From the IMG/VR virus record IMGVR_UViG_3300038701_001000, positions 1 to 44,940 of that record: a stretch of 44,940 nt of DNA; one strand, 5' to 3'. The notes under the pieces were generated by a model, which had not been told where the DNA came from, searched no databases, and was given only the letters and a program-made list of their open reading frames with translations. The position numbers and the translations under genes were made by a program. The DNA is from a virus. Shown here one piece after another: positions 7,619-41,480 of the stretch; position 1 is the stretch's first letter, and every line of letters begins with the position of its first letter.

Positions 7619-8158
7619 ATGTCAGATAGAATTGAAACCACGCACCGCGGATACAAAATCCAGTACGGCGAGAACAATGACGAATGGTGGTGTCACGAGC
7701 TGGATATCACCAGCAAATCGCTCCAACGCGTGAAACGACGCATCGACCAGATCCAGCTCAAAGAGCGAAAAGAATCGGCCGTGGAGTGCTTCGAGCTGAC
7801 GTCGTCGCACACAGCCGGTGGTCGGACCAAGCTCAGTTACGCCAAGGTAATCGAGTATGGTGGCGCCAAGAAACCTTACGGTTACAAAGAGGGTGATCCG
7901 CTGCAACAGGAAGTCTACGCGCTCACCAGAAACCGCGACAGTGACCGAATGCGTCGCAGCAAGTTCAACATGGACAACATGATCCGGAAAGAATCGGGCG
8001 TGATGGATACGCTTGGTTGCATCCACATCCTTGAAGCGCAGCGGTACGATCTGGATCAAGAGATCAAGGCGCTCGTGAAAAGCCTGCCCCGCCTCACATT
8101 GGACGACATCGAACCGCTTGTGCGGATCTCAACAGAAGAGGCTGAAGACAATGGCTAA
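7619..8158 (+). CDS. Hypothetical protein, 179 aa
   Basis: Start at ATG 7619 after AGAGGAT. The N-terminus (TTHRGYKIQYGENNDEWWCHEL) resembles a short beta domain seen in proteins of unknown function, followed by a helix with ITSKSLQRVKRRID and a basic middle, then a helical C-terminus. It overlaps the Spo11-like gene by 8 bp, so the two are translationally coupled and could act together; no partner relation can be shown from sequence. Confidence 0.7.
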   Translation: MSDRIETTHRGYKIQYGENNDEWWCHELDITSKSLQRVKRRIDQIQLKERKESAVECFELTSSHTAGGRTKLSYAKVIEYGGAKKPYGYKEGDPLQQEVYALTRNRDSDRMRRSKFNMDNMIRKESGVMDTLGCIHILEAQRYDLDQEIKALVKSLPRLTLDDIEPLVRISTEEAEDNG

Positions 8159-9071
8159 AGAATGGTTCGAAGACCACAATTTCAAACCGGCAACGTTGCG
8201 CACCATTGCACACGCGAACCGGATCATCAACACGTATATGGCGGAAGGCTACGTCCTGTCTCTGCGACAACTGTACTATCAGTTTGTGTCGGAAGATCTC
8301 ATCGAGAACAGCAAGCGCAGCTATGATAGTCTGAAGAACACAATGACGAATGCGCGCATGGCCGGATTGGTCGATTGGGCGGCTATCGAAGATCGTGAAC
8401 GGACACCTAAGTCTTGGCTCATTGAAGAGACCGAACGTAATGCGCTCAAAGACGTCGAGATGAATTTCGCACTCGACATATGGGACCGGCAGAACGTCTA
8501 TGTTGAAGTATGGGTCGAGAAAGCTGCGTTGGCCCCCGTGGTGCGCCGCGCTTGCTCGCGTTGGTCCGTGCCATATCTGGCCTGCAAAGGCTACGTGTCA
8601 GCGTCAGAGGCGTACAACGCAGGCAAGCGGTTTGAAGATCACTATTACTGCGACCGGAAAGTCATCGTTCACTTAGGCGACCACGATCCATCGGGGATCG
8701 ACATGACCCGTGACAATCGAGATCGGGTACAGATGTTCGCCAATGACGCCGACGTCGAAGTGCATCGCATCGCGCTCAACCGTGACCAAGTGGACCAATA
8801 CGGACCGCCCCCGAACCGGACGAAAAAGACCGATAGTCGAGCCTACGAATATATCATGGAGCACGGCAATGATTCATGGGAGTTGGATGCGCTCAAACCA
8901 CAGGTCATCAACGATCTGATTGATGGTCACATCCGCACACTCATTGATGAAGATCAGTGGTTCGAAGACCGCCAAGAGGAACGCGAACGACGCAAGCCGC
9001 TGGCCGCACTCTACAAGCGGTTTGATGAAGTAATGGAATTCGTGAAAGGACTAGACAATGAAACTGACTAA
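8151..9071 (+). CDS. Spo11/Topo VI subunit A-like protein (winged helix + Toprim)
   Basis: 306 residues from ATG 8151 (MAKEWFEDHN); the longer frame starts inside the previous gene. Residues 34-46 (YVLSLRQLYYQFV) match the catalytic-tyrosine segment of the Spo11/Topo VI-A winged-helix domain (pattern S-x-R-x-x-Y-Y), with candidate Tyr42/Tyr43. A Toprim domain follows: Glu123 in VEVWVEK and Asp177/Asp179 in GDHDPSG, the metal-binding E and DxD. In this family the A subunit cleaves both DNA strands via tyrosine, with the Toprim domain holding Mg2+. No B (ATPase) subunit is seen in the window, so it resembles single-gene 'Mini-A' relatives. It may nick or relax DNA, or have lost catalysis. Confidence 0.7.
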   Translation: MAKEWFEDHNFKPATLRTIAHANRIINTYMAEGYVLSLRQLYYQFVSEDLIENSKRSYDSLKNTMTNARMAGLVDWAAIEDRERTPKSWLIEETERNALKDVEMNFALDIWDRQNVYVEVWVEKAALAPVVRRACSRWSVPYLACKGYVSASEAYNAGKRFEDHYYCDRKVIVHLGDHDPSGIDMTRDNRDRVQMFANDADVEVHRIALNRDQVDQYGPPPNRTKKTDSRAYEYIMEHGNDSWELDALKPQVINDLIDGHIRTLIDEDQWFEDRQEERERRKPLAALYKRFDEVMEFVKGLDNETD

Positions 9072-9276
9072 AGCTCAGCAAGACGCCTTCAAATGGTTCA
9101 AGGATCATGGTGGGGACGGCGTCTTCACCTATGGTGGTCGACTGCTGGCACAAGGCGAGATCGGACCGCATGAGGCTAGGACGTGGAAAGCGTTGATCTC
9201 ATCAAAGCATTGCGAGGTCTATCGCATGGGTAAAGCGCGACGTCTGCGCATCACGGAAGGATTAGATCATGAGTGA
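9058..9276 (+). CDS. Small winged-helix-like protein, 72 aa
   Basis: Overlaps the Spo11-like gene by 14 bp and the following gene by 8 bp. The sequence, with a helix (AQQDAFKWFKDH), a Gly-rich turn, another helix (HEARTWKALISS) and a basic hairpin (VYRMGKARRLRI), would suit a small winged-helix domain. It is basic overall. A DNA-binding role next to a topoisomerase-like protein is plausible but not shown. Confidence 0.6.
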   Translation: MKLTKAQQDAFKWFKDHGGDGVFTYGGRLLAQGEIGPHEARTWKALISSKHCEVYRMGKARRLRITEGLDHE

Positions 9277-38059: not shown

Positions 38060-39376
38060 TTACGGTGTGTCGTTACCGAGAGTGAATGAGCCAACACGGC
38101 GAACTGCCGTATCAACAGTCTGGATGACACGGAAGCGGCGTCCACCGGAGAGGAACTTCGCTTCTGTCGACATATCCAGTTGCAGACCGTCCCACATACC
38201 GATGAGAAGATCAGACCAGTTACCAACGAACAAGTCGCCGTCTGTGATCTGGTTTGTCTCACTGAATGCGTGACCAACCAAGCGGTTCGCGTCGTCGTTC
38301 ATCAGGAAGATGCCCGATCCCGCGTCGACCTTGGTCTTCTGCAAGTCGCCAACCATGGCCGAGTTACCGAGATAACGGTAGCCGCCCATTTGGTTCGTGG
38401 AAGCAATCGCCGTCTTCATGTCGATGATCTCGTCACGAGTTGGGATTGCCGATGCAAAGGTCACCGAACCGATACCGGTTGTGTTGGCGATACCTTCGGG
38501 GATGCCGGCTGCACCAGAACCGTAGAGCGAGGCGGTGTCGATTGCCAGACGAACAGCTTCAACCATCTGAGCCCGAATATAAAGTTCGAGATCGATAGTC
38601 TGCTGTTGCAGCATCCGACGTGTGACGTCAGTGAACGCAGCCAGATCTTTCGGCGCAAGAGTGATCTTACGGAAAGTCGGATTGCTTTCAGCGGCGTCCG
38701 CGTCTTCTGACGCAAGCCACGCTGCGGCGATGTTTTGGTCACCACCAGGGATCTCAACATCAGAGCTGAGACCTTCCAGCATTGTCGCGCCCGCACCCAC
38801 AACAGCCGACACATTGCGCAGGTTGTCGATGAACGACTCTGCGAGATGATCGGTTGTCAAGATGTTCGGGTTACCGCCAGTTGCCAGTGCAGCACGGGCT
38901 GCGCTGTGAGCGGTGACAAGGCGACCATCTTCGGTGCGGAAACGTCCCCAAGAACCCATAAGGTCAGTTGGAAGAACAAATCCACCGTGGGACAGTGAGC
39001 GCTCAAGCTTTTCTTCCGCGGCAGCAACCGCTTCACGCTCAAACCCGGCAGAGTCAGTATCACCGGACATCATAGAGCGCATGAGGCGCATGACAGAGAA
39101 CGATTGACGCTCGTCTTCGGTCAGACCGATGTCGTTGTTGACCAGCGGTGTGCCTTCCGGCAGGTTCGCAACAGCGATGCCCTTAAACACTGCAAGTGAT
39201 GGTTCTTGACCCTGTGAGATCTGACCAGCAATATAAGAGCGAGCAATGTCGCCAATATTGTGCTCAGACGCCAGCGCCGTAATTTCATTAATGGCGTTCG
39301 TCATCGCTTCCGCGCGTTCGTCTGCCGTACGTTGATCGGCACCAATGCCGGGCAACGTCAATACGTCGTTTTCCAT
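38060..39376 (-). other. Internal in-frame start for separate capsid subunit
   Basis: At 39376 an ATG (residue 204 of the fused frame) is preceded by AAAGGAAC (39388-39381), giving a 5-nt spacing, the best ribosome binding site in this part. Initiation here yields a 438-residue product starting MENDVLTLPG, with the capsid domain but without the protease. It would allow far more capsid than protease from one gene. Not demonstrated by sequence alone. Confidence 0.65.
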
Positions 39377-39973
39377 AGTAGTTCCTTTCGGCTGGTTGCC
39401 AGATCTCCCAATACCAACAGTCTCGTCGGCGGGAATGGTTACAAATGAGGCTTCCCTCGGGCGCCATCTCGTTGCGGTATATGTTCCGGCTTTTTCATCA
39501 ATGTTATACTCCGAAATCTCGTAGCCGACCGATACGTTTCGGATAATTCCTGCTTTGACGTCTTCGTACACCGCTTGCGCTTCCGCGCGCTGCGAGAACT
39601 TGACCTCAACATAAATTCGCTTGTCTTGAAGCCACGCTTTGCGGATAACGCCGATCTGATTACTCAGACCACCATACCACCTGTGACTATCAATGAGTGG
39701 CGCGTTACCGCTGTTCAAGAATTCAAGATCAACAGCGCCTTTGGAGTGATCAAGGATCTCGTCAAGATATCCGAACTCCCAATAGTAGCGCTGATAAGGT
39801 TCTTCCGACGACAACGGGAAAGTCACGACACCCGGCTCATCTTCGCTGATCTGTTTTTCGATCTGCGGAGCCTGATTGGTGTCACGATTAAACTGACGCT
39901 GGTCGGCTTTAAACTTAAGCCGATCTTCCGGCTCAGTTACCGCTTTGCGAGTTTGAAGCGTCCGAGTTGTCAT
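38060..39973 (-). CDS. Prohead protease-major capsid fusion protein
   Basis: 637 residues from ATG 39973 (MTTRTLQTRK), preceded by GGGGAAC; an ATG four codons earlier lacks a binding site. Residues about 50-190 form a HK97-type prohead protease (U35): LIDSHRW with catalytic His and RNVSVGY with catalytic Ser, plus a REASFV element before PADETVGIGR. The remainder (from about 200) is a HK97-fold capsid protein: a helical delta region, then PTFRKITLAPKDLAAFTDVTRRML and QTIDLELYIRAQ, ending with RVIQTVDTAVRRVG. Protease and capsid are usually separate genes; fusions occur. A strong internal start lies at 39376. It overlaps the portal gene by 41 bp. Confidence 0.85.
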   Translation of the reverse strand: MTTRTLQTRKAVTEPEDRLKFKADQRQFNRDTNQAPQIEKQISEDEPGVVTFPLSSEEPYQRYYWEFGYLDEILDHSKGAVDLEFLNSGNAPLIDSHRWYGGLSNQIGVIRKAWLQDKRIYVEVKFSQRAEAQAVYEDVKAGIIRNVSVGYEISEYNIDEKAGTYTATRWRPREASFVTIPADETVGIGRSGNQPKGTTMENDVLTLPGIGADQRTADERAEAMTNAINEITALASEHNIGDIARSYIAGQISQGQEPSLAVFKGIAVANLPEGTPLVNNDIGLTEDERQSFSVMRLMRSMMSGDTDSAGFEREAVAAAEEKLERSLSHGGFVLPTDLMGSWGRFRTEDGRLVTAHSAARAALATGGNPNILTTDHLAESFIDNLRNVSAVVGAGATMLEGLSSDVEIPGGDQNIAAAWLASEDADAAESNPTFRKITLAPKDLAAFTDVTRRMLQQQTIDLELYIRAQMVEAVRLAIDTASLYGSGAAGIPEGIANTTGIGSVTFASAIPTRDEIIDMKTAIASTNQMGGYRYLGNSAMVGDLQKTKVDAGSGIFLMNDDANRLVGHAFSETNQITDGDLFVGNWSDLLIGMWDGLQLDMSTEAKFLSGGRRFRVIQTVDTAVRRVGSFTLGNDTP

Positions 39974-41480
39974 TAGGTTCCCCATTGGAGTCGTTTGCCG
40001 AAGTATTAGTCTTATCGTATGTCAACGTCAAGCCCCGTTCCTTTGCGGCGCGCTCGTCTTCCTCGATCTCGTCTAATAGGTCTTCGAGACTAATGCCGCG
40101 TTGAGCCGCGACACGGCGAAGTGAAGTCTGTTTCGTCTGCAAAGCTTGGGCGTTCGCGGCGACATCTTTTGCCGGATCAACCCAATCCCAACCACGCGGA
40201 CGGAATTTGAAATTCTCACGGATCGCATCGAGACGCGTTGGTGGAATTTGACTTTCAACTTGAAGGATGCGTCGAGATAGCCACATGTCGAAGATAATAT
40301 TGAGCGCGTTGTCAATCAAAAGCGTTTGGCAGTCTTTATAGAACTCGCGATCTTCGAGCGAGATGGTTCGACCGGCACTGTACGATACACCTTCGGTCTC
40401 CATACCGTGCGACATCGCAGAGATACCGGCACCCATTGAGACATCTTTCTTCACCTGACCCTCAAACGCCTTATAGTCCGTTTGCGAGCCACCGGGATCA
40501 AACGACTCGAATGACAAGCCGGGTGGAAGCTGTTTCAGGATGCCCGGTTCCATCTGCATTTCGAGAACGTCTTCACTTTCGTCTTCGACGTCTGCGAGTT
40601 CATCAATGCCTTGCTGCGTCGGCTCATCACTCGTGAAGAAGCCCATGGTCGCCGCTTTGACACGACGGTTCATGACTTCGGCCTCACGATATCCGTCGAG
40701 CATTTTAATGCTGTTGATAATCGTACTCGACCACGGCGCACCACGCGTTTGACCGGGACGCTCGCTGTCGAACAAGTGAATGATGCGGTCAGCCGGGACG
40801 CGACGATAACGTCTCTTAGCGCGCCGCGAATACCATGTCGTGTCGCCGGGATGCTGCGTCAGAACATGATACGCTATCGGTCGATTATCATCGTCAACTT
40901 CGACACCCATGCGGATCTGATTGCCGGTGGTTTGAGCGGGCGTGTTCAACGTCTCGTCAACGAGATCCGCTTCGAACGGGCGGATGCCGATACCGTCCGG
41001 ATACTTGGAATTGAAGACCACTTCCCAAAACAGTTCACCGTCGCGCGCCAACGACCGCAGACCCTGCTTCATAAGCTGTTTGTCGGTGAGCGTCTGACAC
41101 GTCGTTGGTCGGCTCCACCATTTCAGGAACTCGTCTTTGACGCGGTCATTCAAACCTTTATCGAGCGCGCCGTCCTGTTTCCGCACACGACTGTCGAACA
41201 CCATGCCGGTGCTGCCGACAACATTAAGCGTCAACAGGTCCAGAAAACGCTTCATTGACGAACTGTTGCGCGCCAAATAACGTGACTTATTCCGAACGAT
41301 GCGGAGCCCTTGTCTCAACTCATGATCGGCCGATCCGCCACTTGTGACGAAATCGCCATATCGAGCCTTGCTTGCCGCAGCCGCATAACCGCGCTTCGGT
41401 TTAGCCTTGCGTACCGGCGTCTCTTCAACAACTTCCGGTTCCGCCTTTGCGCGCGAAATTTCTAATCCGAGAACTTTCAT
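39933..41480 (-). CDS. Portal protein (lambda family)
   Basis: 515 residues. The start region (KARYGDFVTSGGSADHELRQ) and the following segment LRIVRNKSRYLARNSSSMKRF match lambda-family portal proteins; later GLRSLARDGELFWEVVFN and a conserved HLFDSERPGQTRGAPW occur. The portal forms the dodecameric ring through which DNA enters. The C-terminal 50 residues are acidic and low-complexity (NSNDGEP-type). The gene is between the gpW-position gene and the protease-capsid fusion, as in lambda. Confidence 0.85.
   Translation of the reverse strand: MKVLGLEISRAKAEPEVVEETPVRKAKPKRGYAAAASKARYGDFVTSGGSADHELRQGLRIVRNKSRYLARNSSSMKRFLDLLTLNVVGSTGMVFDSRVRKQDGALDKGLNDRVKDEFLKWWSRPTTCQTLTDKQLMKQGLRSLARDGELFWEVVFNSKYPDGIGIRPFEADLVDETLNTPAQTTGNQIRMGVEVDDDNRPIAYHVLTQHPGDTTWYSRRAKRRYRRVPADRIIHLFDSERPGQTRGAPWSSTIINSIKMLDGYREAEVMNRRVKAATMGFFTSDEPTQQGIDELADVEDESEDVLEMQMEPGILKQLPPGLSFESFDPGGSQTDYKAFEGQVKKDVSMGAGISAMSHGMETEGVSYSAGRTISLEDREFYKDCQTLLIDNALNIIFDMWLSRRILQVESQIPPTRLDAIRENFKFRPRGWDWVDPAKDVAANAQALQTKQTSLRRVAAQRGISLEDLLDEIEEDERAAKERGLTLTYDKTNTSANDSNGEPNDNSDASNSQSGN

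Follow-up and report, generated by a model that had tools for sequence, protein, structure and literature searches.

The window analysed here, i.e. the whole stretch of 44,940 bp, is the entire IMG/VR record IMGVR_UViG_3300038701_001000, a contig that may be a fragment of a genome. The gene under study is located at 8151..9071 on the plus strand, with an intact reading frame from the ATG at 8151 to a stop codon ending at 9071. It encodes a protein of 306 amino acids, in which a winged-helix domain is followed by a Toprim domain, similar to the A subunits of type IIB topoisomerases. Both neighbouring genes lie on the same strand and are overlapped by it, which suggests co-translation: the upstream operon neighbour, a 179-aa gene (phrog_33873, 7619..8158), shares 8 bp with it, in agreement with the coupling noted in the preliminary description, and the downstream 72-aa ORF (9058..9276), which has no family match, shares 14 bp. 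Other genes of the window mark a tailed phage (tape measure, head, portal and terminase), and a group of replication genes encodes a primase, a helicase, an exonuclease, an annealing protein and a DNA polymerase. The major head protein (38060-39985) also matches head protease families, which suggests a protease-capsid fusion.

The residues that the preliminary description had attributed to the 306-residue protein, an S-x-R-x-x-YY motif, Glu123 and DHD, are all present, as S37-L-R39-Q-L-Y42-Y43, E123 and D177-H178-D179. The first motif occupies 8259..8279 (plus strand, as are all features below) and aligns to TLRELYY of Topo VI-A; the codon of Tyr43, the predicted nucleophile, is at 8277-8279. 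Glu123 (8517..8519), the predicted first metal ligand of the Toprim domain, comes after a predicted strand at residues 116-122, and the Toprim DxD, D177-H-D179 (8679..8687), after a predicted strand at residues 169-175. A further motif, S242-W-E244-L-D-A-L (8874..8894), contains Glu244, a candidate fourth acidic residue comparable to E342 of Top6A. In shuffled copies of the protein S/T-x-R-x-x-YY arises by chance at a rate of 0.5% and the three-part signature at 0.11%, so that the catalytic motif, taken alone, is no more than suggestive.

Family evidence was obtained from several searches. A match to PHROG_6247 ("DNA topoisomerase"; E 3e-100) covers almost the whole protein. Relatives were recovered with tblastn in 70 phage records, 68 of them covering at least 80% of the query, with 35-48% identity among the 60 matches listed of the 70, and in 36 plasmid records (22-53% identity). 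Pattern-based scans yielded confirmed relatives both in viral contigs (at least 559) and in contigs of prokaryotic genomes (212). A two-sequence comparison with a protein of Pseudomonas phage NP1 gave 41% identity over 294 aa (E 4e-74), and an archaeal plasmid protein annotated as "Topo Mini-A" is 28% identical. Because of its similarity to these two proteins the window protein is assigned to Mini-A; judged by its sequence, it is a new member of this published, biochemically uncharacterised family, a membership that the preliminary description had missed. The founding Mini-A paper is reportedly Takahashi et al. 2020 (NAR Genom Bioinform). Mini-A proteins, treated in PMC7614492, PMC8185306, PMC8084294 and PMC11302465, are described as truncated Top6A homologues of archaeal viruses and phages, with NP1 as the example in a review figure (PMC7614492); their function is not known (PMC8084294), and no demonstrated activity for any Mini-A was found in the accessible literature. 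The window protein is likewise small, carries the winged helix before the Toprim domain, with predicted elements that fit a Toprim at residues 116-206, and is encoded on a mobile element lacking a B subunit or fused ATPase. Mini-A frames are broken by a stop codon or frameshift in five contigs (L015, L057, L080, L087 and L094), due either to assembly error or to decay. Long N-terminal extensions of the Mini-A ORFs in L012, L134 and L135 contain no domain that could be found, and the two GC-rich ones among these extended ORFs look like chance extensions of an open frame.

For residue conservation the tblastn sets weigh most, since loci fetched by pattern scan are biased towards the searched motifs (RQxYYQ or LGDHDPSG). 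Tyr43 is present in 10/10 proteins of the tblastn phage set and, by alignment, in 7/8 of the plasmid set; the eighth plasmid protein (Haloarcula) is misaligned and possesses R-G-V-H-Y at the corresponding place when inspected by eye. In the two larger sets Tyr43 occurs in 71/71 and 153/153 proteins, and Arg39, Glu123, Asp177 and Asp179 are equally invariant. Because the filter for the 153-protein set required a tyrosine at the Tyr43 place, the 14 ORFs rejected by it were inspected, and the motif is lost only in truncated or frame-broken pieces. Relatives with as little as 24% identity, from phages, plasmids, bacteria and archaea, retain the full set of five predicted catalytic residues. Several members, by comparison, have F, W, H or A in place of Tyr42, and Tyr43 is predicted to be the nucleophile because it is always kept. 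The preliminary description had set conservation of the tyrosine in homologues beforehand as a test of its reading, and Tyr43 passes it; of the pair Tyr42/Tyr43 that it had suggested mutating, the second tyrosine is the predicted nucleophile, and the naturally variable first one is not. On the strength of the PHROG_6247 match, the 70 phage records and the invariant catalytic residues, the observation as such is confirmed. The gene is real and its product probably active; the family is already published.

Arg39 and Tyr43 are four residues apart, which is also the distance from R102 to the catalytic tyrosine Y106 in Top6A, where a clasp of R102 and E342 restrains the tyrosine (PMC13040014). Glu244 is Glu in 151/153 and Gln in 2/153 proteins; it may correspond to E342 of Top6A, a correspondence suggested by an E-x-x-A-L motif match and not placed by the profile alignment. 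The two Gln variants are plasmid Mini-A proteins (L177 2968-3894 and L181 7029-7859), which would, if Glu244 is the equivalent of E342, resemble the Top6A mutant E342Q, which cuts more readily.

Archaeal Topo VI-A proteins were gathered via the family PF04406, and 51 of them were compared with the 153 Mini-A proteins by hhalign. A single co-linear alignment of ~200 columns (score ~37.8) pairs TLRQLYY with TLRELYY, Glu123 with the Glu of ETGGM and DHD with DGD, and additionally the conserved Mini-A segment DQV...Y.PPP....K.TD with SDIV.Y.LP of Topo VI-A. None of 300 column-shuffled controls reached this score (maximum 29.1), a reversed profile gave 14.1, and the part behind the DxD, taken by itself, scored above 200/200 shuffles. 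With an alignment above the shuffles and all three catalytic blocks in register, the view that both catalytic parts of the Topo VI-A/Spo11 type are kept is supported. Hhalign runs with small alignments were not significant, and significance was reached after adding diversity; a PDB sequence search with the single protein and with a small profile returned nothing meaningful. A few relatives match the Pfam families TOP6A-Spo11_Toprim and TP6A_N weakly, and DUF2399, used as a yardstick family, gave no matches anywhere and was uninformative. The AlphaFold2 model built from 71 sequences (pLDDT 94.7, pTM 0.87) displays the Toprim order of strands and helices at residues 116-206. Foldseek detected no PDB match with E <0.001, and neither Topo VI-A nor Spo11 was among the best 50; against viral models it returned mainly scattered matches, several of them to Toprim proteins such as primases, and no match of the whole fold.

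Genes for a GHKL ATPase (PF13589, PF02518) were detected in 0/11 phage records, i.e. the window and ten complete Mini-A phage genomes; the same search, as a positive control, matched 14/14 control genomes. This agrees with the earlier statement that no such gene is present, and, as the window record may be a fragment, the absence of a B subunit rests more on the ten complete genomes. The encoded GHKL B subunit of a Topo VI holoenzyme (A2B2) is missing from these records. One plasmid of 205 kb contains a HATPase domain gene 93 kb from its Mini-A.

The two flanking genes had been proposed to replace the B subunit. Relatives of phrog_33873 are found in Loktanella, Erythrobacter and Rhodobacter phages, and three of these genomes carry no Mini-A; no phage relative could be found for the 72-aa ORF, in which the preliminary description saw a possible small winged helix, and its single-sequence model is of too low a confidence (pLDDT 56.8) to speak for or against such a fold. 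Within ~6 kb of every other Mini-A locus fetched, both genes are absent. Because of this distribution across loci and phages, the proposal that the neighbours substitute for the B subunit was rejected as unsupported.

None of the gene families next to ~160 Mini-A loci is common. The most frequent one, a helicase, lies near 15 of them, followed in frequency by RecE/RecT-type genes, PAPS reductase, HNH endonuclease and DNA polymerase. The Mini-A gene acts as an independent unit, frequently located close to genes of replication and recombination, with no obligate partner among its neighbours. A specific link with recombination exonucleases was considered and discarded, since the phrog_69 exonuclease is equally common in phages without Mini-A: it occurs in 8/11 Mini-A phage records (one match being weak), in 3/3 phages without Mini-A and in 0/3 Mini-A plasmids tested. 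The PAPS reductase gene recurs beside Mini-A at L070 (6833-8227), at five further loci and also at L007 (4005-4691). In phage Phobos (L011 6001-7692) Mini-A lies directly upstream of the genes for the small and large terminase subunits, whereas it is more usually found among genes for replication. Two small circular plasmids possess Mini-A and no clear replication initiator among the genes scanned, the 8.8-kb archaeal plasmid P-7H_11 (L172, LC711082.1) and a 15-kb plasmid of Paenibacillus durus (L174, NZ_CP009289.1). The latter also carries a Zot-like gene of the kind found in filamentous phages, and a weak DnaA-like match falls on this Zot-like ATPase.

In enzymes of the Topo VI-A/Spo11 class, the tyrosine works with the Toprim domain of the partner subunit. 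We consider it likely that the window protein is a stand-alone phage enzyme of this type, a homodimer that cuts DNA via Tyr43 and does so without ATP. Two Mini-A copies would pair across duplex DNA, and the winged helix of one copy would supply Tyr43 for an attack on the DNA backbone at a site where Glu123, Asp177 and Asp179 in the Toprim domain of the other copy hold a divalent metal, leaving each copy attached to a 5' end. The reaction would require no ATPase subunit and no ATP, on the precedent of the mouse SPO11 dimer. Mouse SPO11 cuts DNA without partners; it is a monomer in solution, dimerisation is needed to form the hybrid active sites, and it may reseal nicks (PMC11922746). The break made by Mini-A might either be resealed, providing a topological swivel during phage replication, or be left open as a start point for recombination or replication. 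The biochemical guess of the preliminary description, which had argued for activity, is a reasonable one.

Against this reading count the Foldseek results, the non-significant comparison of small profiles and the lack of a demonstrated Mini-A activity in the accessible literature. A further point to be weighed against a self-sufficient enzyme comes from Topo VI itself, in which subunit B controls cleavage competence (PMC13040014); given this coupling, an A subunit on its own might need a partner in order to be active. Mini-A could accordingly be active only with a separate, unrelated partner of phage or host origin that controls the winged helix, be it the 179-aa protein, the 72-aa protein or a host factor. 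The overlap of the Mini-A gene with both neighbours fits such a partnership, as does the coupling in Topo VI; the absence of both neighbours from other Mini-A loci, the three phages that keep the upstream gene without Mini-A and the lack of a common neighbour family, with even the helicase near just 15 of the ~160 loci, speak against it and would leave a host partner as the possible form. We regard this alternative as unlikely. A narrower role for the protein is quite unlikely in our estimation, namely that of a B-independent, Spo11-like enzyme making double-strand breaks or cutting at origins and thereby starting replication or recombination of its element; if it applied, small Mini-A plasmids without a recognised initiator would use Mini-A as their initiator.

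Departing further from a topoisomerase-type enzyme, Mini-A might be a metal-dependent Toprim nuclease of the JetD, Gabija or OLD sort, which cuts host or rival DNA and does not use the tyrosine as nucleophile. The nucleases of MksBEFG/Wadjet and Gabija are treated as distant Top6 relatives (PMC13040014), three relatives of the window protein match DUF2399 weakly (best E 1.6e-4), and the Foldseek matches are at best of Toprim type. Tyr43 and Arg39, however, vary no more than the metal ligands do, a single alignment path to Topo VI-A takes in both the winged-helix motif and the Toprim domain, and no common partner gene was seen beside Mini-A, so we hold a nuclease of this sort to be distinctly improbable. 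That the protein is a non-catalytic remnant, or a DNA-binding regulator derived from a topoisomerase, would fit the annotation of several related phage genes merely as DNA binding protein and the lack of a reported activity in the accessible literature; as even relatives of 24% identity, from phages, plasmids, bacteria and archaea, have lost none of the five predicted catalytic residues, it is highly improbable. The reading as a stand-alone Topo VI-A/Spo11-type enzyme that would cut via Tyr43 is the preferred one.

Spo11 is the enzyme that starts meiotic recombination. Mini-A represents the simplest form of the Topo VI/Spo11 enzymes, with both catalytic domains in ~300 residues and no ATPase, and if it cuts DNA alone, it would offer a model of B-independent cleavage that is simple to produce, and with it a means of asking whether breakage of the Spo11 kind predates meiosis. 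The value of the present case lies in clear and cheap tests of such cleavage. What is new is modest, i.e. the assignment of the predicted nucleophile to the second tyrosine from natural Tyr42 variants, the invariance of the predicted catalytic set in phages, plasmids, bacteria and archaea, and the lack of an obligate neighbour partner.

Compared with published Mini-A proteins, the window protein has the same size, domain order, catalytic residues, location on a phage or plasmid and absence of a B subunit, and differs in nothing of substance; it is a member with a diverged sequence, encoded by a tailed phage that is uncultivated. With archaeal Topo VI-A it shares, by profile alignment and in the same order, T-L-R-[EQ]-x-Y-Y, the Toprim Glu, the DxD and the post-Toprim segment; in contrast, the N terminus of Mini-A is shorter, a Topo VI-B gene is lacking, and the kinship lies below direct sequence detection. 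Spo11 is likewise an A-type protein with a winged helix and a Toprim domain, of which the mouse enzyme cuts without a B partner (PMC11922746), but its biological setting differs, and accessory factors are not known for Mini-A. Topo VIII, also type IIB and located on mobile elements, is called close to Mini-A in PMC8185306, and possesses an ATPase part where Mini-A has none. JetD/MksG and Gabija GajA are Toprim dimer nucleases distantly related to Top6A (PMC13040014); these belong to multi-gene defence systems, whereas Mini-A occurs alone and keeps the topoisomerase-type tyrosine and arginine.
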